64,000 nucleotides of DNA, from assembly GCA_029260495.1 (NCBI GenBank), contig JAJDDD010000012.1:1-64000 (forward strand), written 5' to 3'. The position numbers and the translations under genes were made by a program. This document shows positions 20,822 through 45,166 of the stretch, piece by piece. Source of the DNA: Phycisphaerales bacterium. Lineage in GTDB: Bacteria > Planctomycetota > Phycisphaerae > Phycisphaerales > UBA1924. The notes beneath the pieces were generated by a model that searched no databases, was not told the DNA's origin, and saw only the letters and a program-made list of their open reading frames with translations. Every line of letters starts with the position of its first letter. The first letter of the stretch is position 1.

Positions 20822-21595
20822 ATGATGAACAACGAACTTCACAAGAAGACACCTTGCATATCGTGCGGGTATGACCTGGTGGGGCTGGGGGCGGATGGGG
20901 TGTGTCCGGAGTGTGGGCACTCGATTCGGAAGACGCTGGCGGCGGAACAGTTGGCGTCGCTGCCTGATGGGAAGTTGCGGAGCATTCAGGTTGGGGCAGT
21001 GATTGTCGCTAGCGCTTTGTGCTCTGGTCCGCTTGTCGGTTTGGCGACGTTGTTCGCATTGAGGTTGGCGCCGATGTGGGTGTGGTTGGCGCTGGGTGGA
21101 ATATGGATCGCCGTTCTCACAGTTGGGCTCTGGCTTTTCGCTACTTCCGGGAGGGCGCCTGCTACGCGAACGGATGGCGCTGAAGAAGCATCAGGCCGCC
21201 TGCGCATGCTTGCTTTCGTCATCGCCATCACAGGCGTTGCCACTGTCATTCTGTTTCCGTTGAGTGGCATGGTTGTTCTTGTGCTTCTGGCGTTCCTTGC
21301 AGAGCCGATCTGTCTCATATTGTTGGAGTCGATGCTTGCCCACACTCAGTTTCTTGCTGAGCGAGTTCCGAATACGCGCATTTTAGTGTTGATCCACACT
21401 GCTGAAGTTGTGTGGGTTGTCGGGGTGCTGGTGGCGTTATTGGGATTTGTTTTTTCACCGTTGCACATTGTGGGCATCGTTTTGGTCTACATCGGTTTTG
21501 TTATTGGGGCTGTCGCGCTCCTTAAACTCGGCCATATCATCGCGCAGATTCGGCGCGAGCGTGATGGGGATGAGAGGACGGGGATTTCTCAGTGA
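20822..21595 (+). CDS. Zinc-ribbon multi-pass membrane protein, copy 2
   Basis: A 257-residue paralogue of copy 1 lying 67 bases downstream. The ribbon is CISCGYDLVGLGADGVCPECG, followed by SIRKTLAAEQLASLPDGKLRSIQVGA and about six hydrophobic spans. The head matches copy 3 almost exactly at both DNA and protein level, while the membrane part matches copy 1 less well. The C-terminus (IIAQIRRERDGDERTGISQ) differs from copy 1, which suggests that ends have been exchanged. Two adjacent ATGs (20822, 20825) are possible starts. Confidence 0.75.
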   Translation: MMNNELHKKTPCISCGYDLVGLGADGVCPECGHSIRKTLAAEQLASLPDGKLRSIQVGAVIVASALCSGPLVGLATLFALRLAPMWVWLALGGIWIAVLTVGLWLFATSGRAPATRTDGAEEASGRLRMLAFVIAITGVATVILFPLSGMVVLVLLAFLAEPICLILLESMLAHTQFLAERVPNTRILVLIHTAEVVWVVGVLVALLGFVFSPLHIVGIVLVYIGFVIGAVALLKLGHIIAQIRRERDGDERTGISQ

Positions 21596-21598
21596 TGG

Positions 21599-21667
21599 AT
21601 GAGTGCGATTGCGCTTGGCGAGCTTGCTTTAACTGTCGCGTGTCTTCGTCGGATGCGGGAGTCTTGA
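21599..21667 (+). pseudogene. Severed 3' end of another zinc-ribbon membrane protein copy
   Basis: Reading from 21599 gives SAIALGELALTVACLRRMRES then stop, clearly homologous to the last residues of copy 1 (AVAMGELAVTVAGLRRMRE). No body precedes it: copy 2 ends four bases upstream. It is the tail left after recombination between repeats or a deletion. Confidence 0.7.
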
Positions 21668-21732
21668 TGTAGCGCATGCGCGTGTTTTTTCAATGGCGAC
21701 TGAGGTTGGGGGTTGAAGAGAATCAATACACG

Positions 21733-21951
21733 ATGACTACTGAACTCCTCAAGAAGACGCTTTGTATTTCGTGCGAGTATGACCTGGTGGGACTGAGCGC
21801 GGATGGGGTGTGTCCGGAGTGTGGGCACTCGATTCGGAAAACGCTGGCGGCGGAGCAGTTGGCGTCGCTGCCTGACGTGTTTCTGGAATTTATGCAGAGC
21901 TGGTACAGCACTTGGGGCTGCAGGGGTTTGGTCGTTTGGGTTTTGCACTAA
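21733..21951 (+). pseudogene. Truncated zinc-ribbon membrane protein, copy 3
   Basis: From the ATG at 21733 about 49 residues match copy 2 (CISCEYDLVGL...CPECGHSIRKTLAAEQLASLPD), including all four zinc cysteines. Homology ends abruptly after SLPD; about 23 unrelated residues run to a stop. No membrane spans remain. A free soluble zinc ribbon could still be made, but a broken copy is the simpler reading. Its start context resembles that of copy 2. Confidence 0.7.
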
Positions 21952-22480
21952 CGGGTGTTCCACGGCTTACCCGTCCGAAAAGTACAGTCTGGGCAAATAG
22001 AAAAATAGCCGCATTACTGTGGTCGCCGATTGGATAAGTCGATGGACAGGCGAGTGGAGCAGACCAGAGAACCAGCCCGTGTCCCAATAGAACATCAGGT
22101 ATGTCAAGAAAACCGGCGGAAAGCTCCCTTGGTTTTTCATGTTAACCCGATGGTTTGGCTGCTTACGGATCGTCACGACAAGCTCTTCGTAAATCCGCGT
22201 AAAGCGCTCTTCGTCTGCGCCCCTGTATTAGCAATAACCCTTGCCACTGGATGGTTGATGGAGCAACACGATGCACCTCCAGGATGGTGGTGGTTTCCAA
22301 TTGCTGCGCTGCTACTCTTATCAGGGGTTGCGACATTACAGTCTGTAGTGCAGCTGCTTTCATTCGATTAACGCTCACATGCAAAAGTAGAGCCTTATTG
22401 GGATGCCACGGTTGGATGTGGATAGATAGCATACTTGCCAGCTTACACAGCACATAACAGAGCTATTACGCAAAGTGTTG
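21952..22480. other. Low-GC stretch after the broken zinc-ribbon copies
   Basis: About 530 bases of visibly lower GC than the flanks. Apart from the small hydrophobic frame at 22150-22371, I see no RNA gene, repeat or convincing promoter here. With the truncated copies beside it, this looks like a patch of decay or insertion. Confidence 0.4.
22150..22371 (+). CDS. Possible small two-span membrane protein
   Basis: From the ATG at 22150, 73 residues with two hydrophobic stretches (ALFVCAPVLAITLATGWLM and WFPIAALLLLSGVATLQSVV) joined by a short polar loop, preceded by a charged head (TDRHDKLFVNPRK). The frame is open further upstream to 22030, but that part looks non-coding. No ribosome binding site is evident. 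It may be a real small inner-membrane protein or the remains of a larger gene. Confidence 0.35.
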   Translation: MVWLLTDRHDKLFVNPRKALFVCAPVLAITLATGWLMEQHDAPPGWWWFPIAALLLLSGVATLQSVVQLLSFD

Positions 22481-24634
22481 TCAACTATGAATGAGTGCAA
22501 CGGTGCGGAGAAGTTCTGCGACGCTCCAAGCCTGGGCGGGGCAGCCGGCGGCGCGTTGGGGAGAGTTTGGGGCATCGGTTGCGTCGTAGACCTCTGCGAT
22601 TTGCCCGACGCATTCAGTATTGAGTGAGTTGAGCAGGGGCTGGAGTGTGCGCATTGCTTCGGCGCGGGATTCGGGGGAGAAGGATTCGGCGCGGAGTGAG
22701 GCTTCGATGAAGGGGCCCATGAGCCAGGGCCAGGCGGTTCCGTTGTGGTAGGCGCGGTCGCGGTCGAACATGTTGCCTTCGTAGCGGGGATGGAAGTCGG
22801 GGTCGGTTGGCGCGAGTGTGCGCAGGCCGAAGGGGGTGAGCAGATGGTCGCGCACGGTGTTGACGACGGCGCGCTGTTGGTTGGGTGTGAGAGCGGAGTG
22901 GGGGAGGCTGACAGCGAAGATCTGGTTGGGGCGGATTTGTGCGCTGGGGCGCCAGGAATCGCCGTCGGGGTAGAGGCAATCGAAGAGGCAGTTGCCTTCG
23001 TCGTTCCAGAAGGCGGCGCGGAAGGAGGTGGCGACTTTTTCCGCGAGGGCTGCGAGGTTGGATGATCGGCGCGGGTCGGTTGTTGCGACGGCTTGGGCGA
23101 GCGCGCAGAGGTCGTGGCGCCAGAGGGCGTTGATTTCGACAGCTTTGCCGTGGCGGGGCGTGAAGACGACGCCGCTATTTTTGGCGTCCATCCATGTGAG
23201 TTGGGTGTCGGGGGCGCCGGCGGCGATGAGGCCGTCGCGCTCGTCCATGTGGATGTTGAAGTCTGTGCCTGCGCGGAACCAGTCGATGATTTCATAGCAG
23301 GCGGGTTTGAGTGTTTGTTCGAAGCCGGCGCGGTCGTTGGTGACGTTGAGGTATTGGCAGGCGGCGCTGATGAACCAGAGGGAGGCGTCGAGGCTGTTGT
23401 AGTGGGGCTCGCCGCCGTAATCGTCGAAGCGGTTGGGCACGAGGCCGCGCCGGACGGCGCGGGCGAATGTTTCAAGCGTTTGGCGTGCTTCGGCGTAGCG
23501 GCCTGTTGTGAGAAGGAGGCCGGGGAGGGCGATCATGGTGTCGCGACCCCAGTCGGCGAACCAGGGGTAGCCGGCGAGGATGGTTGTTGATGGCTTGCTG
23601 TCGATGAGGCGTGTGGTGACGAAGGCGTCGGCGGCGTCGGCGAGGGCGGGGAGTTCGGGGAGCGACGCGAGATTGGGATTGGCGGCGGTGATCTGATTGA
23701 GTGTGTTGGTGAGGCGGAGTTGTTGTTGGGTAAGGGCGTGATCGCGCGTGGGGATGGGGATGGGGACATTGGGGGTTTGGTTTGATTCACTGGCTGCGCG
23801 CTGGAGGCGGGCATGGATGGAGAAGCGGGCGCCCTGGAGGCCGGGGGGGATGTTGAAGAGAAAAGAGCCGGGCGCGAGGAGAGATTCGGTGTGATCCTGG
23901 CCGCGCTCGCGGTCGCGTTCATAGAGGAAGTTGCGCCATGTTTCGCGGTTGTATGTGAAGGCGCCGGCGTCGGCGGTGAGATCGAGGGCGAGATCGTCGC
24001 GTGTGATGCGCACAGCGGGGGCTGCGTTTGGGGCGGGGGTGACGTTGAGATGGGCGATGTGCTCATCGGTGCAGAGGCTGTGGAAGTCGCGCAGCGCGAC
24101 GAGCGGGCGGACGGTGAGTTGGGCGGGGGCGCCGTTGGTCGTGATGAACCATGTGAGGATGGCGCCGGCGCCGTCGGGGAGAAGCGCGAGTTCGCGGATG
24201 ACTTCGACGCCGTCGTGGAGTGTGTAGACCCAGCGGACGGCGTGATCCTTTTCAAAGCGCGTGAGGAAGTCGGCGCCGCATGGGTGGGTAGTGTCGCCGG
24301 GGAAGCGGTGGGAGGAGAGGGGGGCGTGTTGTTCGATGTGGGCGCCGGGATTGGTGGTGAGTTCGTCGACGACGCTGGCGAGGCTGACGATGCGCTCGAC
24401 CGGGGGACGGAGGGATGAGACGAGGAGGGCGTGGTAGCGGCGGGCGGAGGCGCCGAGGGCTGTGCCCATTGAGTAGGCGCCGGCGCGATCGGTGAGGAGC
24501 CATTCTGCGGCGAGGAGTTCTTCGTGCGAAGCTCCGGCGGCGTTGCAGATGAACTGAGCGTGTTCGCGGCGGACGTCCATGCGCAGATTGTGCGCGATTG
24601 TGGGCTCAGGGGCATGGTGGGTGGCGGTGGTCAT
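22481..24634 (-). CDS. Glycogen debranching enzyme (amylo-alpha-1,6-glucosidase type)
   Basis: A 717-residue enzyme of the archaeal/bacterial GDE family. The N-terminal domain (about 30-270) begins EWLLTDRAGAYSMGTALGASARRYHALL, the typical opening. The C-terminal (alpha/alpha)6 catalytic domain (about 330-710) has AGYPWFADWGRDTMIALPGLLL, TWMDAK, RPNQIFAVSLP and YHNGTAWPWLMGPF. It removes alpha-1,6 branches from glycogen or maltodextrin. No glycogen synthase or branching enzyme is adjacent. The start at 24634 is supported by the conserved distance to EWLLTDR. Confidence 0.92.
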   Translation of the reverse strand: MTTATHHAPEPTIAHNLRMDVRREHAQFICNAAGASHEELLAAEWLLTDRAGAYSMGTALGASARRYHALLVSSLRPPVERIVSLASVVDELTTNPGAHIEQHAPLSSHRFPGDTTHPCGADFLTRFEKDHAVRWVYTLHDGVEVIRELALLPDGAGAILTWFITTNGAPAQLTVRPLVALRDFHSLCTDEHIAHLNVTPAPNAAPAVRITRDDLALDLTADAGAFTYNRETWRNFLYERDRERGQDHTESLLAPGSFLFNIPPGLQGARFSIHARLQRAASESNQTPNVPIPIPTRDHALTQQQLRLTNTLNQITAANPNLASLPELPALADAADAFVTTRLIDSKPSTTILAGYPWFADWGRDTMIALPGLLLTTGRYAEARQTLETFARAVRRGLVPNRFDDYGGEPHYNSLDASLWFISAACQYLNVTNDRAGFEQTLKPACYEIIDWFRAGTDFNIHMDERDGLIAAGAPDTQLTWMDAKNSGVVFTPRHGKAVEINALWRHDLCALAQAVATTDPRRSSNLAALAEKVATSFRAAFWNDEGNCLFDCLYPDGDSWRPSAQIRPNQIFAVSLPHSALTPNQQRAVVNTVRDHLLTPFGLRTLAPTDPDFHPRYEGNMFDRDRAYHNGTAWPWLMGPFIEASLRAESFSPESRAEAMRTLQPLLNSLNTECVGQIAEVYDATDAPNSPQRAAGCPAQAWSVAELLRTVALIHS

Positions 24635-34981: not shown

Positions 34982-35054
<73 letters not shown>

Positions 35055-35162
35055 CTTTGTGACTTGAGATTTTTCAAGGACATACGGCATTGTTAGTCTT
35101 TGGAAATAGCCATGCAAAGGATGCTGTTTCACCCGCTTTCGCGGAGAGAGGCTGCCGTCAGC

Positions 35163-35485
35163 ATGGCTCGCAAAAACAACTCGATACCCATTCTCAGACA
35201 TCACAAGGCGCGCAACGCCGCACATGTGCGCGTCGAAGGCACAGAAATACACTTCGGCCCCTGGGACGATCCTGAAACCAAACGAGCCTACGAATTGTGG
35301 CTCTCTCGATATCTCGCTTGCGGACGCCGCATCAGCTCCGGCACGCCTTCGCGACGCAATACACCGACGAGACGACGGTGGAGAAGGCTCGCATCCAGCT
35401 CGGCCACAGCCAGCTCAAAACAACCCAGGGCTATCTCTCACCGGAGCTCTGGCGATTGATTCCAGATGCAGCGGAGAGATTTTGA
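35163..35485 (+). pseudogene. Collapsed tyrosine recombinase (phage/ICE-type integrase)
   Basis: The first part (from ATG 35163, frame of 35100) reads MARKNNSIPILRHHKARNAA and then FGPWDDPETKRAYELWLSRYLA, like the N-terminus of planctomycete integrases. After about 55 residues the frame is lost. The second part (frame of 35297) reads TPHQLRHAFATQY...QLGHSQLKTTQGYLSPEL: the HxxR, LGH and catalytic Tyr of the recombinase C-terminus. About 250 residues between, including the first catalytic Arg, are gone. It is inactive and marks an old integration beside tRNA-Ala. Confidence 0.8.
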
Positions 35486-35536: not shown

Positions 35537-36769
35537 GTGTCATTAACCACGCTTTGGGTGGACATGGACGCCTATTTTGCGTCCGCAGAGCAGCATTTAC
35601 AGCCGGCGCTGAGAGGGCGCCCCGTGGGTGTGGTTCCGGTCTACACCAGCGCGGGGAAGCCTGCGGCGACTTCCTGCTGCATCGCTTTTTCCTATGAGGC
35701 TCGGCCGTTTGGCGTGAAGACGGGCACGGTTGTCGCCAAGGCCCGGCAGCTCTGTCCATCCATCCGTTTTGTTCACGCTCGGCCCGCGGAGTATGTGCGC
35801 CTGCACCATGCCATCCTCGACGCGACCGACACGGTGATCCCTGTCGATCAGGTCTACTCGATTGATGAGTTTGCATGCCGCCTCATGGGGCGCGAGAAAG
35901 ACCCCGTGCATGCTGCCCAGCTCGGCCTCACCATCAAGAAGGTGATGCGCGAGCAATTCAGCGATGCGCTCACCTGCTCGATCGGCATTGCGCCCAACCG
36001 GCTGCTCGCCAAGGTCGCCGGCGATCAGCGCAAGCCCGACGGGCTGAATGTGATTGAGTCCAACATGCTGCCTGAGTGCCTCTTTGATCTCGCGCTCGAT
36101 GACTGGCCGGGGATCAGTCGGGGCATGTCAGCGCGCTTTGCCCGTCACGGCGTGACGACGACCGAGCAGATGTACGGCCTCTCTGAATCTGAGATGAGCG
36201 ATGTGTTTGAGTCTGTTGATGGTTCGCGTTGGTGGATGCTGATCCGCGGCTTTGACCTGCCGGACAAGAAGACGGTGCGGCGCACGCTCGGGCATCAGCA
36301 TGTGCTGCCGCCGGTGAAACGATCGCCGGAGGAGGCGCGGCGCGTTGTTGTACGATTGCTCGCCAAGGCGGCGCAGCGACTGCGGCGCGAGGGGTATCGC
36401 GCCAGTGAACTCATCTGCAGCGCAACCCTCTTTCCCGAGGGAAAATGGGCCAGGCGCTCGATCCTGCCACCGACGAACTCGACGCGCGTCTTTCTGATGG
36501 CGATGGCCGAGCAGTGGCGCACCGCCCCGGATGCAAGATTCTTCATCGTCTCTGTCACGCTTCAGCGGCTGACACCGCTTTCCTTTGCGCCGGAGCCGCT
36601 CTTTGCCGGCGAGAAGGCGGAGGAACGGCTCGACCGCGCCATCGATCGCATCAATGGGCGATTCGGCTATGCGGCCATTCACCCGGCCTCAGCGGACACC
36701 GCCTCAGCCCCCATGCGTATTGCGTTTTCGAGCATCCCTGATCTCGAAGCCCCAGACCTACACGCTTGA
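35537..36769 (+). CDS. Y-family DNA polymerase (DinB/Pol IV-like)
   Basis: 410 residues from GTG 35537, with GGAGGAGA eight bases upstream. The catalytic acids are in VDMDAYFASAEQ (about residues 8-19) and YSIDEFACRL (about 106-115). LTCSIGIAPNRLLAKVAGDQRKPDG is the family's palm/thumb sequence, where Pol IV usually has S.GIA.NK..AK.AS...KP. DDWPGISRGMSARFARHGV is the helix-hairpin-helix. It copies across damaged DNA. No beta-clamp QLSLF-type end is obvious; the C-terminus reads IPDLEAPDLHA. It lies 16 bases before the SRAP gene, forming a damage-tolerance pair. Confidence 0.9.
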   Translation: MSLTTLWVDMDAYFASAEQHLQPALRGRPVGVVPVYTSAGKPAATSCCIAFSYEARPFGVKTGTVVAKARQLCPSIRFVHARPAEYVRLHHAILDATDTVIPVDQVYSIDEFACRLMGREKDPVHAAQLGLTIKKVMREQFSDALTCSIGIAPNRLLAKVAGDQRKPDGLNVIESNMLPECLFDLALDDWPGISRGMSARFARHGVTTTEQMYGLSESEMSDVFESVDGSRWWMLIRGFDLPDKKTVRRTLGHQHVLPPVKRSPEEARRVVVRLLAKAAQRLRREGYRASELICSATLFPEGKWARRSILPPTNSTRVFLMAMAEQWRTAPDARFFIVSVTLQRLTPLSFAPEPLFAGEKAEERLDRAIDRINGRFGYAAIHPASADTASAPMRIAFSSIPDLEAPDLHA

Positions 36770-36785
36770 CGGATAGACTGAAACC

Positions 36786-37484
36786 ATGTGCGGACGCTTC
36801 ACACACAAATACACCTGGCGGGAGGTCTATGAGTTTCACGAGGGAATCTCACATCGCTTTCCTGATGAAGACCCGGCGCCCAACTACAACGCGCCTCCGA
36901 TGGCGCATGTCCCTGTGCTCTGTTTCGATGAGAGCGGGCCGTATGGAACGATGATGCGCTGGTCGCTGGTGCCCGGCTGGTCGAAGACGCCTGATACCAA
37001 ATACTCCACGTTCAACGCGCGAAGCGAAGACGCTGCGACGAAGCCGACGTTTCGTTCAGCGTTCAAGCGGCGCCGCTGCATTATTCCGGCGAGCGGGTTC
37101 TATGAGTGGAAGAAGCTGAAGGACGGCTCGAAGCAGCCCTACTACATCACCCGAGCAGATGACGATCTACTCTACTTCGCCGGCCTCTGGGAGTGCTGGC
37201 AGGATGAGCTGATCACCTGCACGATTCTCACCACCACACCCAACGCTGAGATGACCGCGCTGCATCATCGGATGCCGTGCATTCTGGAGCGCGAGCAGGC
37301 GGAGGCATGGTGCGACCCGGAGCTCAACGATGTTGAGCGGATTCAGGAGTTTCTCAAACCGGCGGCAGACGGACTACTAACGATGCATGTAGTCGAAAAG
37401 CGAATTGGGAACGTTCAGAATAACGACGCGAGACTAATCGAAATGTGTCACCCTGCAATCACAAGATCGACCGATCAAGACTAG
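36786..37484 (+). CDS. SRAP-family abasic-site DNA-protein crosslinking protein (YedK/HMCES-like)
   Basis: 232 residues beginning MCGRFTH: Cys2 is the residue that bonds covalently with abasic sites in single-stranded DNA once Met is removed. FNARSEDAATKPTFRSAFKRRRCIIPASGFYEWKK contains the conserved Asn and the catalytic Glu; HHRMPCILE holds the active-site His. This family protects abasic sites at stalled forks. Its location just after a Y-family polymerase gene fits a shared role in tolerating DNA damage. Its C-terminal end overlaps the convergent nuclease-like gene by four bases. Confidence 0.93.
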   Translation: MCGRFTHKYTWREVYEFHEGISHRFPDEDPAPNYNAPPMAHVPVLCFDESGPYGTMMRWSLVPGWSKTPDTKYSTFNARSEDAATKPTFRSAFKRRRCIIPASGFYEWKKLKDGSKQPYYITRADDDLLYFAGLWECWQDELITCTILTTTPNAEMTALHHRMPCILEREQAEAWCDPELNDVERIQEFLKPAADGLLTMHVVEKRIGNVQNNDARLIEMCHPAITRSTDQD

Positions 37485-38428
37485 CTCTGGCTTGCGAGCC
37501 CCTGGCGCTGGATTTCGTCGATCGGAAACCACGAATTGTTGCGAAACAAAACTTCGTTCATAAGCTCTTCTAATCCGGACAGAGTCACAAACTCGATGTG
37601 CGACAGCGTAGCGCTCATGCTTCCCATGTTGTTGTAGCCGCAGGCACACCCAACAAAATAACTACATCGCTTAACCTGCCTGGGCTCGGAAACCTTTTCT
37701 CCGCTGGCTTCATAATTGACCTGCCAAAGCAATCCATCTGGAACCACTAAGACAGGAAGCACCAGAGACAAAAACGGACGTCCATGCCGTTTTCCTTCAA
37801 TCGCAGCGGAATCAATCAAATCTGCTGCAGAGGAGAGCGCCTGAGCCCACTTTCCATACACATCGCTATCACTCCCAGATATGGAGTCATCCTTCTTCTT
37901 AAAGACCTGGACGCAACTTTTACCGACTAGCTGCGCTGTGCCGTACTCGGTGAACGGAGGGCCAACTCGGTAGGCATGAGCATTACTCGAATCAAGGAAG
38001 TCCAACATCTTTGTTGGGTCCATGACACCCATGCCAGAATCCACAGGATCAGGATCAACAGAGAGAATCAATTCGTGATAACTCTCGTCGCAGGATCGCG
38101 GAACACACATGACCAACAGTGGGTGAGTTTCGGAAATCTGCTTGCATTCAATTGCGCATTTGACACCAATGGCTCCGTGTTCCTTCTGTGCGCGAATGTC
38201 AAACTCGCGGTTTTTCTTCGTCAGTGGATCAGTATAAGAACCACCGTGCTGACACAAGAATCCAAGCTTATTCATTCTCTCAAGACAGCGAAGCTCGAAT
38301 GCAAAATCGGATACATCATCAAGGTACTCCGATAGCTCCGCAACGCCGATTTGGCTTTCATTATTATCTGCCAATGCAACTCCCTCTTGAAAATTCAAGA
38401 TGCCTACCCTACTAAACAATAAGTACAT
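37481..38428 (-). CDS. PD-(D/E)XK nuclease-like protein of unknown function
   Basis: ATG 38428 gives 315 residues; the longer frame to 38584 would overlap the upstream gene. FELRCLERMNKLGFLCQHGGSY, KNREFDIRA (Asp77) and CAIECKQ (Glu94-x-Lys96) together fit the PD-(D/E)XK core: Glu on the first helix, REFD, then ECK about 17 residues on. The rest (PVLVVPDGLLWQV, FVGCACGYNNMG) matches nothing I know. GC is near 45 per cent in part of the gene, far below its neighbours, suggesting horizontal transfer. Neighbours are damage-tolerance genes and an integrase relic. It could be a defence nuclease or part of a restriction system; there is no partner methylase. Confidence 0.6.
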   Translation of the reverse strand: MYLLFSRVGILNFQEGVALADNNESQIGVAELSEYLDDVSDFAFELRCLERMNKLGFLCQHGGSYTDPLTKKNREFDIRAQKEHGAIGVKCAIECKQISETHPLLVMCVPRSCDESYHELILSVDPDPVDSGMGVMDPTKMLDFLDSSNAHAYRVGPPFTEYGTAQLVGKSCVQVFKKKDDSISGSDSDVYGKWAQALSSAADLIDSAAIEGKRHGRPFLSLVLPVLVVPDGLLWQVNYEASGEKVSEPRQVKRCSYFVGCACGYNNMGSMSATLSHIEFVTLSGLEELMNEVLFRNNSWFPIDEIQRQGLASQS

Positions 38429-38451: not shown

Positions 38452-38853
38452 TTATCCCGTCACGACGCTCGTGAAGCTGCGCAGTGATGCCAGGTATGGA
38501 GACCTCGCCCGCGTCATGCGCACGCGCCACTGATATTCGCGCGTGTTGACGATGTGCTCGCCGAACGCAGGAACTTCGATCCACGGCCCAAGGTTGCCCT
38601 GCCCGATCAGCTCGCCCGCGGGAGTCGTGCGAATCTCATAGACACGCCGCACAGCGTTATAGATTGTAAACTTGCCGTCGCGCGACGCATACGTCGCCAA
38701 TTTCCCATTCGTGGAAAATTGCCGATCGTGTGGTGAGCAGCAGGACATTCGTTTTACTACAGCTAGCCAATAGAATGCGCTCATCAAAACGAGCAGCACA
38801 ACACTCGTAGTTGCCAGAGTTCTCACAAGGCGGTTGCCATGAGGATGCGTCAT
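38452..38853 (-). CDS. Small single-span membrane protein of unknown function
   Basis: 133 residues with one N-terminal span (TLATTSVVLLVLMSAFYWLAVV, about 12-33) followed by a soluble domain with beta-like segments (NGKLATYASRDGKFTIYNAV, RVYEIRTTPAGEL). It lies 23 bases upstream of the nuclease-like gene on the same strand, so they may be co-transcribed. No family recognised. Confidence 0.5.
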   Translation of the reverse strand: MTHPHGNRLVRTLATTSVVLLVLMSAFYWLAVVKRMSCCSPHDRQFSTNGKLATYASRDGKFTIYNAVRRVYEIRTTPAGELIGQGNLGPWIEVPAFGEHIVNTREYQWRVRMTRARSPYLASLRSFTSVVTG

Positions 38854-40322: not shown

Positions 40323-40666
40323 GGAGGCCCTTACTGTACGCCCGCGGAGACGGGTCGGCATGGCGGTGAGGCGGCGCAGAGTGGCTTTTTATTAATTGAC
40401 GGACGGCGGGCGCCTCGTCAAATCGGATTGTGCAAAAACTTACGCCCTCGCGCGAACCCCCGCTTGCCGGCGGCGTATCACGGCGGGGTCGGGATGCGCG
40501 CAGGCAGGCTTTTGAGATATGGATTCTGCCCTCGCTGCATCGTGATCCCGCAGATTGACCCCCCGCGCCGGTGGACATCGGGACGCCCACAGCGACAATA
40601 CGATCTTCCCTCACCGCTCCGGGCTCACCGGGCCACTCCTCGACTTTCCTGAACCTGCGAGATGCG
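40323..40666. promoter_or_regulatory. Divergent intergenic region between permease and SPFH operon
   Basis: 344 bases with starts on both sides. TTGACG (40396-40401) and CGTCAA (40416-40421) form a perfect 6-bp inverted repeat with 14 bases between. They could be facing -35 hexamers for the two directions or an operator. On the minus strand, ATTAAT about 19 bases after TTGACG is a weak -10. No coding frame is convincing here. Confidence 0.35.
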
Positions 40667-42694
40667 ATGAAAGCAGATCCCCAAGCCTACCGCAGCGCCG
40701 TGGTCACCAGCTTCGCCGGATTCCTGGTGCAGCTGACGCTGGCGATTGTCATTCTCATCTACGCAGCGATCGCCAAGGATGAAGTCGCTGAAACCATCTT
40801 CTACTTCTTGCTCGCGGGCCTGCCGATCTGGGTGAGCCTGATGCTGGTCTTTCATCAGCACCGTCTTGAGCGGCGTGAGGCGATCGAGGCGGAGATGTAC
40901 GCTGAATCCAGCGCGGCGCAGGCGTCGGTCTTCGAGGGGATTGACAACGATCTCCGGGTCGCCGCCAAACGTCTGGCGTGGATGCACAAGGCGCTGTTGC
41001 CTTTCGTAAGCGTGCTTGTCGGAGGCCTGCTGATTGGCATCGGCCTGTGGCGCTTTGAGTACCTCGCTCCGGCGGACTTCGACAATTTTCAGCCGCGCAC
41101 GGGGTGGGCGGTTTCGATCGGGCTGACGCTCGCGGTCGTCGGATTTATCTTTGCGCGATTCATCGCCGGCATGGGCAAGCAGGAGATCTGGTCGCACTTG
41201 CGGGCAGGGGCAGCTTCGATGGCGGGGACTTCCCTCGTCGGGCTTGCATTGGCGCTGGCGCACGGCGCGTGGTATGTAGACAAGCCGGGGCTGTTTCGCA
41301 TTCTTCATGCCGTGATTCCGGCCATTATGATTGTGCTTGGCGCTGAGGTTTTCCTCAACTTCGTGCTGAATGCGTACCGCCCACGTCATCTCGGCGAATC
41401 CCCTCGGCCGGCCTTTGAGTCGCGCATTCTCGGATTTATGGCGGCCCCTGATCGCATTGTCGAGTCCATAAATGACGCAATCAACTATCAACTCGGCTTT
41501 GATGTCACATCCACATGGTTCTACCAGCTTCTGCAAAAACGCCTGATCGGCTTGGCGGCGCTGGGCGTGCTGCTGCTGTATCTGCTGACATGCGTCGCGG
41601 TGGTGCGACCGACTGAGCGCGCGCTTGTGCTGCAATCTGGCCGGCTGGTGCGTGAGGTGGATTCGGGGATCGTCTTTAAGGCGCCGTGGCCGTTCCAGAC
41701 TGTCGAGAAGCATCCCGCACGCGCTGTCCGCCAGATTCAGGTCGGCGAGATGCTTTCCCAGAATACAGATGAAGCGATTCTCTGGACCAATCGGCACGCG
41801 ACGCGCGAGATGTTCCTGCTGGTTCAACCAACCCCGACGGGGCGCACGACCGAAGCAGCTGTGACCAACGATATGGCGCTCCTCGCGGTCGAGCTGGTGG
41901 TTCAGTTCGCGGTGGCGGATCTTTCCAAGTTCCAAATGCTCGCCGCTGACGGCGTCGCCTGGCGCGATGAGATGCGCCTTGACTTGCTGCGCACGGTGGC
42001 GTCGCGCGAGTTGATGTTAAGCGCCGCGACAATGACAGTCGATGACATTCTCGGTAGTTCGCGCGGCGAACTGTCAGAGCTGCTTGCAGGATCAATCCGC
42101 GATGCTTTCAATCGACTTGACGCCGGCGTCGATGTCCTCTTCGTCGGTGTCGCCGGCGCTCATCCGCCTCAGCAGGAATCGGTCGCCCTCAGCTTTGAGC
42201 AGGTCGTCGCCGCGGAGCAGCGCCGCGAGTCATACATCGAACTTGCCGAAGCTGTGGCGCTGCGCACGCTCGCCAATGCCGCGGGGGATGTTGAACTTGC
42301 GCGCAGCATTGTTGTCGAGCTCGATCAGTACGAATCTCTCAAAGACACCGGCGCTAGTGAAGACGAGATCATTCAGCAGGAGCTCGCGATCGAATCTCTC
42401 CTCGCTCAGGCAGGTGGGGATGCTGGGGCGATCATCATGGAAGCCCGCGCTGAACGCTGGAGTCGACATATGGGCGCTCGGGCCCGCTCGCTGCGTCACC
42501 TTGGGCAGGCCGCGATGTTCCGGGCCGCCCCCGAAGTGTATATGGCCCAGCGTTATATCGACACGCTGATCGAGTCTGTGGAGCGTTCACGACTCGTTAT
42601 TTCAGCTTTCAAGGATCCCTACATCATCTGGGACGTGACAGATAGCCAGTCCAGCTTCAACGCCTTTGAAGCCACGACCAATACTCAGGAGTAA
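40667..42694 (+). CDS. Multi-span membrane protein with SPFH (band 7) domain
   Basis: 675 residues from ATG 40667 (MKADPQAYRSAVV); the frame runs back to 40571 but that part looks non-coding. Unlike ordinary SPFH proteins with one N-terminal span, this has about six or seven: near residues 10-36, 42-65, 108-130, 142-165, 175-200, 205-235 and 290-312. The SPFH domain follows (VVRPTERALVLQSGRLVREVD...GIVFKAPWPFQTVEKHPAR), then a helical tail rich in Ala, Glu and Arg, as in HflK/prohibitins. SPFH proteins build ring-like scaffolds at membranes and control proteases such as FtsH. First gene of a six-gene operon; the next gene's GTG follows four bases after its stop. Confidence 0.85.
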   Translation: MKADPQAYRSAVVTSFAGFLVQLTLAIVILIYAAIAKDEVAETIFYFLLAGLPIWVSLMLVFHQHRLERREAIEAEMYAESSAAQASVFEGIDNDLRVAAKRLAWMHKALLPFVSVLVGGLLIGIGLWRFEYLAPADFDNFQPRTGWAVSIGLTLAVVGFIFARFIAGMGKQEIWSHLRAGAASMAGTSLVGLALALAHGAWYVDKPGLFRILHAVIPAIMIVLGAEVFLNFVLNAYRPRHLGESPRPAFESRILGFMAAPDRIVESINDAINYQLGFDVTSTWFYQLLQKRLIGLAALGVLLLYLLTCVAVVRPTERALVLQSGRLVREVDSGIVFKAPWPFQTVEKHPARAVRQIQVGEMLSQNTDEAILWTNRHATREMFLLVQPTPTGRTTEAAVTNDMALLAVELVVQFAVADLSKFQMLAADGVAWRDEMRLDLLRTVASRELMLSAATMTVDDILGSSRGELSELLAGSIRDAFNRLDAGVDVLFVGVAGAHPPQQESVALSFEQVVAAEQRRESYIELAEAVALRTLANAAGDVELARSIVVELDQYESLKDTGASEDEIIQQELAIESLLAQAGGDAGAIIMEARAERWSRHMGARARSLRHLGQAAMFRAAPEVYMAQRYIDTLIESVERSRLVISAFKDPYIIWDVTDSQSSFNAFEATTNTQE

Positions 42695-42698
42695 TCCA

Positions 42699-43760
42699 GT
42701 GCGACGTGTCTTATTGCTCTTTGTCGCTGTTGTTATTTTCATAGTCTTCGTGCTCTTTTCTGTGACGTATACGGTGCGATTCACGGAAGAGGCTGTCTTG
42801 TCTACGTTCGGCAAAGCTTCTGCGGAGAGCGTGCAAAGCGAACCGGGACTCAAATGGCGCTGGCCAGCGCCGATCCAGTCCGTCACCAGCTACGACACGC
42901 GCACCCGCCTGCTGAAGACCCCCAGCGAGACTCAACAGACGGCGGACAACCAGCAGATCATTATCGAAGCCTTCATCACATGGCGCGTCGCTGACCCGCT
43001 TGTCTTCTATCAAAGGTTCAGTGGGGAAGGCTCCGAAGCGCGTCGGCATTACGCCGCCGCCGAAGGCGCTCTGCGCTCTCAGCTTCGCAGCGCGCTCTCG
43101 GAAGTCTCACGTTTCCGCGTCGGTGAGTTGCTTTCATCGGCGTCCGGTGGCTCCCGCCTTGCTGAGCTTGAGAAAGCAGTGCTCGATCGGATGATTAGTC
43201 AATCAGCAGACAACGCCGGCAGTTTGGTGAGCGAGTGGGGGGTCAAGGTTGAGTTGGCGGGGATTGGCCGGATTGTCCTGCCCGAGGAAACCACGAAAGA
43301 TGTATTTGCTCGCATGAAAGCCACGCGCGAGCGTCTGGCAGCCGCCGCTGAAGGACAGGGTGAAGCTGTCGCCAGCACGATCATGACGAAGGCGCGGACC
43401 GATTCCAACCGAATCCTTGACTTCGCGGAGCAGCGTGCGGAGCGAATTCGCAATCGAGGCGAGAGGGAGGCTGCCCAGTACATCGCGACGCTCAACACTG
43501 ACCCGGACCTTGCGATTTTCAACTCGCAGATAGATCTGCTTCGCAACCTGTGGACCAAGAACACCACCCTGATTCTTTCCACCGATATGAGAGGTCTGAC
43601 CGTCTTCAATCCCAATCTTCTTGACACTCTTGATCCGGAAACGGGCCTCCCGCCCTTCTCCGGTGATGGTGGTGTGGAAAGTAATGACGACGATGACTCC
43701 CGCGCCGCTGCTTCAGATGAAAAGCGTGATCGCCGGGCGCTTGGCGGAGGGCGCCCATGA
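42699..43760 (+). CDS. HflC-like SPFH (band 7) membrane protein
   Basis: 353 residues from GTG 42699, chosen because AGGAG (42687-42691) lies seven bases upstream; an ATG at 42666 overlaps the previous gene. One N-terminal span (VLLLFVAVVIFIVFVLFSVTYTV), then VRFTEEAVLSTFGKAS, GLKWRWPAPIQSVTSYDTRTRLL, a pattern close to HflC, and ending EQRAERIRNRGEREAAQYIATL with FNSQIDLLRNLW. The acidic C-terminal tail (SNDDDDSRAAASDEKRD) is not usual. HflC works with HflK around FtsH; an FtsH gene is not present here. Stop overlaps the next ATG by four bases. Confidence 0.88.
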   Translation: MRRVLLLFVAVVIFIVFVLFSVTYTVRFTEEAVLSTFGKASAESVQSEPGLKWRWPAPIQSVTSYDTRTRLLKTPSETQQTADNQQIIIEAFITWRVADPLVFYQRFSGEGSEARRHYAAAEGALRSQLRSALSEVSRFRVGELLSSASGGSRLAELEKAVLDRMISQSADNAGSLVSEWGVKVELAGIGRIVLPEETTKDVFARMKATRERLAAAAEGQGEAVASTIMTKARTDSNRILDFAEQRAERIRNRGEREAAQYIATLNTDPDLAIFNSQIDLLRNLWTKNTTLILSTDMRGLTVFNPNLLDTLDPETGLPPFSGDGGVESNDDDDSRAAASDEKRDRRALGGGRP

Positions 43761-45166
43761 GCGATCCATTCAAGGAAGAGACTTCGACGTCCGCGTTCTC
43801 GGGCAGCTCCCCGGGGTATGAGAGTGAAGAGACGCTGATGGATCCTGCCCATCAGTCGTTGGCGGAGGCGTTGAACATCACGTTCAAGCTTCTCGTTGTC
43901 GTCATGCTTGTGCTCGTGGCGCTTTTCGTCATGAGCGGCTTTCGTCAGGTCAAGGAATCACAGCGCGGCATCAAAGTCACGCTTGGTCGAGTGGTGGAAA
44001 GCGACGTCGCGCCGGGGTGGACGTTCGTGGCGCCGTTTCCCGTCGGTGAACTCCTCCTCATCGAAACCGGCACGAAACAGATCGAGCTTAAAGAAGAGTT
44101 CGGCCCCGCGGCGGTGTCCGGCCAAGGCATTGAAAATGCTACAAAATCCATGCATACGCTCAACCCGGAGGATGCGAGCTCCGTCGTCACCGCCGACCTC
44201 AACCTCGCTCACACCTGGTGGGGCGTCGTGTGGACACGCAATGACGTTGAAGCCAACAGGCAGAATATTCACGAGGAGTTTGAAGATGAGATCGTTCGCA
44301 CCGCAGTTGAGCGCGGCGTTGTGCATGCGATGGCGAACATCACCATCGATCAGCTTCTCAAGCAGGGAGTCGCGGGAGCCACCGGCGGAGGCGAAAGTTC
44401 AATTACGGTCAATGTGCGAAATCTCGCTCAGGAAACGCTCGACGCTTTAGAAGCTGGAATACGCATTGAATCTATTAGCTTGATTGGTAAGTCTCCTCCC
44501 GGGAGGCTTAAGGAGGACTTTGCCCGCGTCACCAAGGCAGAAGCAGGCGCGGCAAAATCTCTTGAAGACGCGCAAAAGGAGGCGCGGACGCAGCTAAACG
44601 CCACCGCCGGCGACGCCCACGCCGCTCTGCTCACCCTAATCGATGAATACGGGCAGGCGATTGAGCTTGAAGATGAAGCTCGCGCCGAGCAGTTGCTCGA
44701 CACCATCGACACCGTGCTTGAAGGTGAGCCGTACGAGTTTGAGGGCAGAACTGTCGTTGTCGCAGGATGGGTCACCGATGTGATCGAATCAGCAAAGTCC
44801 TATCGCACCAACGTCGTCGCCTCGGCGCGGGCTCGCGAGCAGAGCTTTCTTACGAAACTCGCTCAGTTCAGAGCGCTCGACCCTGCAGTCTATGTTGCTC
44901 GCGAATGGAGCCCCGCCTTCCAGGATTTTCGTCTCAATGGAGGTGTTGAGGTTGTGCTTGTTCCGAGCGGAACGGATCCCGTGGAGATCATCCTCAGCTC
45001 TGATCCGGATATCGGCAAGGAGAAGGAGCAGGCTCGCAACAGGGGAGAAATTTCTAAGAGCATGGAGCGATCATACGGCGCTGTCGATGACGCCTACCGC
45101 GATCGTAAGGGCATCGAACGCGAGCGCGAGCGCGAGAAGCGCCGACGTCAAAATAGCGGCGGCTGA
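43757..45166 (+). CDS. HflK-like SPFH (band 7) membrane protein
   Basis: 469 residues: a hydrophilic head, one span (about 42-62, LLVVVMLVLVALFVMSGF), then KESQRGIKVTLGRVVESDVAPGWTFVAPFPV and the SPFH domain to about 260. A long region between about 265 and 400 is rich in Ala, Glu and Gln and probably coiled (KAEAGAAKSLEDAQKEARTQ). The tail is strongly charged (KGIEREREREKRRRQ). The order here is multi-span SPFH, HflC-like, HflK-like, whereas classical operons run hflK-hflC. Translation is coupled to the previous gene. Confidence 0.85.
   Translation: MSDPFKEETSTSAFSGSSPGYESEETLMDPAHQSLAEALNITFKLLVVVMLVLVALFVMSGFRQVKESQRGIKVTLGRVVESDVAPGWTFVAPFPVGELLLIETGTKQIELKEEFGPAAVSGQGIENATKSMHTLNPEDASSVVTADLNLAHTWWGVVWTRNDVEANRQNIHEEFEDEIVRTAVERGVVHAMANITIDQLLKQGVAGATGGGESSITVNVRNLAQETLDALEAGIRIESISLIGKSPPGRLKEDFARVTKAEAGAAKSLEDAQKEARTQLNATAGDAHAALLTLIDEYGQAIELEDEARAEQLLDTIDTVLEGEPYEFEGRTVVVAGWVTDVIESAKSYRTNVVASARAREQSFLTKLAQFRALDPAVYVAREWSPAFQDFRLNGGVEVVLVPSGTDPVEIILSSDPDIGKEKEQARNRGEISKSMERSYGAVDDAYRDRKGIEREREREKRRRQNSGG

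Follow-up and report, generated by a model that had tools for sequence, protein, structure and literature searches.

What might an unusually AT-rich gene encode when it lies beside an integrase relic, a translesion polymerase and a SRAP gene, and would its product act in defence or in repair? The gene is located in a window of 64,000 nucleotides, the whole stretch of DNA analysed here, from a Phycisphaerales bacterium. A preliminary description of this sequence had placed the gene at 37481-38428, discerned in it a PD-(D/E)XK-like nuclease core and suggested an uncharacterised defence or repair nuclease. The frame and the stop codon are borne out, the open frame running from an ATG at 38428 to a stop at 37481-37483 on the minus strand. 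The start is better placed elsewhere: a TTG at 38374, 18 codons inside this frame, is most likely the actual one, because GAGGGAG lies 5 nt upstream of it and because, in the alignment, the resulting N-terminus lines up with those of the relatives, which begin M(A)KLK..PIG..DL.EYL. In the numbering from this TTG, used throughout, E27, D59, E76 and K78 are the residues previously called the helix Glu, Asp77, Glu94 and Lys96, positions that are correct when reading from the ATG. The features of the locus are collected in Table 1.

Table 1. Coordinates of the predicted nuclease gene, its motifs and the neighbouring features in the window
Feature	Position	Strand	Basis and remarks
tRNA-Ala(GGC), context	34982..35055	+	next to the relic
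Tyrosine recombinase relic, N-terminal, context	35181..35330	+	matches frames in other genomes
Y-family DNA polymerase, context	35537..36769	+	IMS match, E 2.8e-32
SRAP gene, convergent with the nuclease	36786..37484	+	E 1.1e-66; context, probably outside the system
Predicted PD-(D/E)XK nuclease gene	37481..38374	-	297 codons plus stop, TTG start; frame, relatives, predicted fold
Insertion, codons 79-169	37868..38140	-	between motif III and long helix 170-191; invariant R93, E97, K152, S153, Q156
Motif III, Glu76-Cys77-Lys78	38141..38149	-	end of strand 69-77; alignment and model
Motif II, Asp59	38198..38200	-	opens strand 59-66; alignment and model
First core helix, codons 23-36	38267..38308	-	DSSP of the model; motif I Glu27 at 38294-38296, invariant
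Shine-Dalgarno-like GAGGGAG 5' of the TTG start	38380..38386	-	sequence; position counted by hand

Profile matches confirmed the identities proposed earlier for the polymerase and the SRAP protein, the stop codon of the latter gene overlapping that of the nuclease in a shared CTAG (37481-37484). The supposed integrase relic likewise proved to be an N-terminal fragment, the 50 residues of which match frames in 7 other genomes among the 31 searched, one of these frames encoding a complete tyrosine recombinase that matches Phage_integrase. A search for a pair of att sites around the tRNA-Ala gene returned short, chance-like repeats only. The right flank, namely, an ABC2-type membrane gene followed by three consecutive Band-7 genes (40571-45166, two of them confirmed as Band_7), is kept in 8 of 8 relatives, and the nuclease, SRAP and polymerase genes, along with the left-flank RlmE and Dus genes, have no match in any of the 8 within the 18-19 kb taken. 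Synteny is simply broken at this place, and a clean empty site is not apparent in the 8 relatives. The nuclease gene is preceded on its strand by a frame of 133 residues with a likely membrane segment (38452-38853), which has no Pfam match and only a PHROG match at E 0.07.

The GC content of the nuclease gene is 49.2%, as against 59.6% for the window, and the low-GC patch pointed out in the preliminary description (27 G+C of 60 positions in 38101-38160) was confirmed by recounting. Equally low values occur in 0.33% of the stretches of the same length in the window, all of which overlap the nuclease gene itself; another low-GC stretch, at 21211-22600, goes down to 51% in 894-base steps. At third codon positions, the nuclease gene has a GC fraction (GC3) of 0.53, compared with 0.70-0.79 in five neighbours, including the SRAP and polymerase genes, and therefore the odd composition is confined to the nuclease gene.

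Membership and distribution of the family

The window protein has no match in Pfam or PADLOC, a single chance-level match in PHROGs (E 0.085), and no sequence match in the PDB. When used as the sole query, it retrieved no relative from either the genome collection or the viral collection. When 392 genomes from the phylum were searched, two real relatives emerged besides the window's own copy (E 1.1e-61 and 1.4e-43); the other 38 of the 41 matching genomes, at E 0.02-0.87 as opposed to 1e-43 or better for the 3 real ones, were dropped as noise. A plasmid search added one relative, from Paracoccus (L031, 37% identity), and a four-sequence alignment used as the query detected 17 loci in the genome collection and 2 viral contigs, some of them identical places. 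An additional member was found in genome G1344 (E 6.1e-66). A scan of the viral collection with a degenerate pattern picked out 3 contigs, none of which is a relative by profile. The known copies comprise 19 intact ones, the window included, and 2 broken or truncated ones (L033:3419-4285 and L047:10016-10381), which indicate that the gene can be lost.

Alignment A2, on which the subsequent analyses are based, consists of 17 rows, the window protein and 16 relatives, after removal of duplicates (L002, L003 and L050, the same places as L034 and L045), of the two broken copies and of the plasmid copy L031; the latter is nevertheless included in the tree and the GC counts, whereas locus L090 enters none of A2, the GC counts and the tree. 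The 17 aligned members produced matches to Pfam, PADLOC and PHROGs in single members only (best E 0.031-0.078), and their best NCBIfam match (E 0.072) is at chance level; against the known anti-phage families of PADLOC, the best E value was 0.031, in 1 of the 17 members, with none for the window protein. The earlier term uncharacterised thus holds for all four libraries, and, judging from these comparisons, the family is previously unlisted in the defence, phage and domain libraries searched. A literature search, including excerpts of PMC1913061, PMC10952713 and PMC10855318, turned up no description of the family in the text covered, and the accession of the plasmid protein does not occur in the papers searched.

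The family is rare and patchy, with named intact copies in five phyla: Planctomycetota, Pseudomonadota, Nitrospirota, Thermodesulfobacteriota and Verrucomicrobiota. Of 163 genomes belonging to the window's taxonomic family, one carries the gene. Searches with A2 around other copies gave similarly sparse results. In the order to which the Paracoccus copy belongs, the search centre itself was the sole match among 390 genomes. Within whole phyla, there were 2 matches in 398 genomes for the Massilia copy (the centre plus a distant relative, E 2.7e-8), 2 in 184 for the Spartobacteria copy (the centre plus G1344), 2 in 188 for the Desulfococcaceae copy (the centre plus a fragment of 61 positions containing two stops), and 3 in 178 for the Nitrospira copy (the centre plus two distant relatives). 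Four of the 15 inner branches of the tree are strongly supported, one of which (100/99) unites copies from Roseateles, Nitrospira and Planctomycetes. The Nitrospira and Planctomycetes copies share 68% identity across phyla, although several hosts are metagenome bins, in which contigs might be misbinned. In all 17 relatives, the GC content of the nuclease gene is below that of the rest of the locus (mean difference, 9.8 points), as it is in 18 of 18 loci with the window, and among genes of 150 codons or more, the nuclease has the lowest GC content in 8 of these 18 loci, compared with 2.0 expected.

Catalytic motif and predicted fold

The rows of A2 are 29% to 68% identical in pairwise comparisons, with a median of 36%; of the 297 columns, 30 are invariant. 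Among these are all four putative catalytic residues, the Asp, Glu and Lys on which the preliminary description had staked the nuclease assignment and, likewise, the helix Glu, each being identical in 17 of 17 rows; H43, D49, R56, R61, C77, R93, E97, K152, S153, Q156, K175 and Q178 are invariant as well. The four residues correspond to superfamily motifs I, II and III according to the definition given in an excerpt of PMC1913061, where the Hjc residues are given as E9, D33, E46 and K48.

A model predicted from the single sequence was useless (pLDDT 32.2, pTM 0.26); with A2 as the input, AlphaFold produced a confident one (pLDDT 85.1, pTM 0.84). Its elements are helix 23-36, strands 40-44, 59-66 and 69-77, the insertion of ~90 residues, helix 170-191 and strand 201-211, which amounts to a predicted alpha-beta-beta-beta core in which each motif residue occupies the element expected for it. 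Foldseek searches of the model against the PDB and BFVD found no match at E 0.001. VIA-align aligned 998 chains, of which 7 reached Z 5 and none reached Z 8, and the top 15 rows span Z 3.8-6.5, a range that, as the tool warns, is common. All 15, namely, Upx, XisH, AF1548, two FokI entries, YdjA-YdiS, four Hjc-type resolvases, Shedu, three R2 endonucleases and MspJI, are proteins that we take to be of the PD-(D/E)XK type. We are less sure of two of these assignments, that is, the presumed nuclease nature of Upx and the identity of YdjA-YdiS (9a5m), presumably a BsuMI restriction component. The first row outside this fold is an acetyl-CoA carboxylase at row 16 (Z 3.7). The assignment of the PD-(D/E)XK fold is made because the fold class of the structural rows agrees with the invariant motif and not from the Z scores alone. 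Taken with the confident model, this agreement makes the predicted PD-(D/E)XK core well supported, and the window protein very likely possesses both the nuclease fold and the motif. Neither of the outcomes named in the preliminary description as refuting its proposal, a fold lacking this core or a failure of the Asp, Glu and Lys to be conserved among homologues, was observed.

Genomic neighbourhoods and probable role

The gene product is probably a stand-alone, metal-dependent PD-(D/E)XK DNA endonuclease representing an undescribed family of ~290-residue proteins. In the predicted mechanism, the metal ions would be coordinated by Glu27, Asp59 and Glu76, and Lys78 would orient the water for attack; recognition of the substrate would fall to the insertion after motif III, the putative substrate-recognition part, and to the C-terminal beta region, each of which contains invariant polar residues. 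The single AT-rich gene appears to travel alone and to settle in defence islands, prophages and plasmids, and the nuclease would most likely cut the DNA of invading phages or plasmids. We lean towards this reading, a mobile DNase predicted to act against foreign DNA, because a mobile single-gene defence nuclease would account for the gene being rare, AT-rich and scattered over several phyla and for its occurrence in defence, phage and plasmid settings.

A gene-by-gene comparison of 18 relative loci and the window revealed no companion common to all loci; beyond the nuclease itself, three pairs only are shared across loci, namely, GajA between L036 and L038, SRAP between the window and L040, and the Y-family polymerase between the window and L031. 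Placement in defence islands, which the preliminary description had put forward as a check, was examined with PADLOC on 19 neighbours picked by eye from 12 of the 21 loci, without a matched random control. Solid matches were obtained in 6 of these 12 loci (L036, L038, L042, L043, L044 and L033), whereas no defence gene was recognised among the 7 scanned neighbours of the window copy. GajA and GajB lie directly beside the nuclease in L036 (divergent, ~82 nt between the likely starts) and in L038 (same strand, ~155 nt downstream), with E values from 1e-247 to 1e-294. The two GajA proteins have different models as their best matches, and the nucleases beside them belong to different supported clades of the tree, which argues for two separate associations with Gabija. 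Searching 10 genomes (8 chosen genomes with relatives, the window's genome and G368) for OLD-type TOPRIM proteins gave 4 matches, 2 of them within 2 kb of the nuclease: in G545 and in G552, the sole such match of the genome lies on the nuclease contig within that distance, and the other two matches are on other contigs. By a rough, after-the-fact estimate, made with both cases known beforehand, ~0.009 such neighbours would be expected by chance within 5 kb on either side, giving P near 4e-5 for two.

Among the remaining solid matches, a TIR protein lies 1.0 kb from the nuclease in L043, the candidate defence family PDC-S31 adjoins it in L044, PDC-S15 (FRG domain) is near the broken copy in L033, and JetC, cut by the contig start, is 1.2 kb away in L042, where the order (L042:3-3386) is Wadjet JetC, two small genes resembling a toxin-antitoxin pair, and then the nuclease. 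A SIR2 match in L039 is weak (E 2.5e-4, and under the Pfam cut-off), and a type III restriction subunit near the nuclease in L090 was identified by visual inspection alone. PADLOC returned nothing for the neighbours tried in L031, L032, L034, L037 and L046, nor for second ones in L042, L043 and L044. Of the two roles originally suggested, defence or repair, the neighbourhoods of the family favour defence.

A nuclease of DNA repair or damage tolerance, working with the SRAP protein and the translesion polymerase, is the role that the window itself would suggest, given the convergence with SRAP and the polymerase nearby. The damage-tolerance neighbours stressed in the preliminary description do recur in part: in L040 (3357-9724), SRAP lies ~250 nt upstream on the same strand, with IMS-type (ImuB-like) and DnaE-type polymerases further off on the other strand, and in L031 a Y-family polymerase is ~1.1 kb from the nuclease. 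We consider this role weaker because SRAP and the polymerase each recur with one other copy and, having normal GC3 in the window, differ from the nuclease in composition; presence in a single genome of the window's family is also unlike a core repair gene. A repair function is accordingly rather improbable, and a solitary mobile anti-phage DNase, its role in defence being our inference, is favoured over a repair enzyme. Somewhat less improbable, but still unlikely, is that the nuclease serves a phage or another mobile element, in junction resolution, packaging, recombination or excision control, with the bacterial copies being remains of prophages or plasmids. Two copies are in phage contigs and L031 is on a plasmid; a T7-type terminase lies beside the nuclease in L045, the copy in L049 is between an integrase and a lysozyme, the window holds the integrase relic, and the structural rows include Hjc-type resolvases and XisH. 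Yet the nuclease has no match in 50,697 phage records and no convincing PHROG, the viral collection contributes two contigs, and most copies have no adjoining recognised phage genes.

In a narrower form of the favoured explanation, the protein would be a type IV-like restriction enzyme that depends on modification, cutting DNA whose bases are modified. MspJI is among the structural rows and the gene is solitary: one neighbour in L041 is a methylase, and the search for the partner methyltransferase of a Type II restriction-modification system found none conserved with the nuclease across the 18 relative loci and the window. Scans of the family, however, detected no known modified-base reader domain, and this form is rather improbable too.

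Distant relatives of 259-274 residues, with a similar pattern of helix Glu, REID and (I/V)E(C/A)K, were also observed (L093:7930-8745, found in L060 too; L091:8408-9184; L092:8686-9507), one of them aligned at probability 97.1; L060 has no Pfam or PADLOC match. The three are single genes among what look by eye like housekeeping genes, which suggests that a wider superfamily of solitary nucleases might exist and, therefore, that this superfamily need not be defensive. As for the family proper, we tentatively propose, at somewhat less than even confidence, that it is either an unrecognised anti-phage system made of one gene or a mobile accessory nuclease added to Gabija and other defence systems, and that the conserved insertion after motif III gives it a distinct mode of recognising foreign DNA.

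Relation to known systems

If the favoured reading is correct, a stand-alone nuclease family would be added that none of the defence, phage and domain libraries searched contains and that is small enough for one-step cloning and testing. Its link to Gabija, seen twice independently, would allow a test of whether add-on nucleases widen the range of Gabija. It would nonetheless be one more family within a very large nuclease superfamily. With the other PD-(D/E)XK enzymes (the FokI cleavage domain, Hjc, MspJI, XisH and AF1548), the nuclease shares the order of core elements, the motif I Glu, the motif II Asp, the motif III ExK and the predicted fold, but it differs in the long insertion that separates motif III from the following helix and in having no significant sequence match to a solved structure or curated family.

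Shedu is a single-gene system. Its nuclease domain (PDB 8ti9), a defence nuclease of the PD-(D/E)XK type, aligns with the model at Z 4.2 over 125 residues (rmsd 5.3, 12% identity), although the family has no PADLOC match. The best structural row, Upx (PDB 9wuf, residues 1123-1272), has a Z score of 6.5, not significant by itself, over 115 residues (rmsd 3.2, 16% identity); its chain has 1212 modelled residues, compared with the 297 of the window protein. In an excerpt of PMC10855318, Upx appears in a list of anti-phage systems that act by degrading nucleic acids. The relation to Gabija is one of neighbourhood. The PADLOC Gabija models have no match among the 17 rows at E 1, where two chance-level matches to other models appeared. 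Most members have no Gabija nearby, whereas two stand directly beside it, and the nuclease, which contains neither TOPRIM nor helicase, is distinct from both GajA, an ATPase joined to TOPRIM, and GajB, a UvrD helicase.
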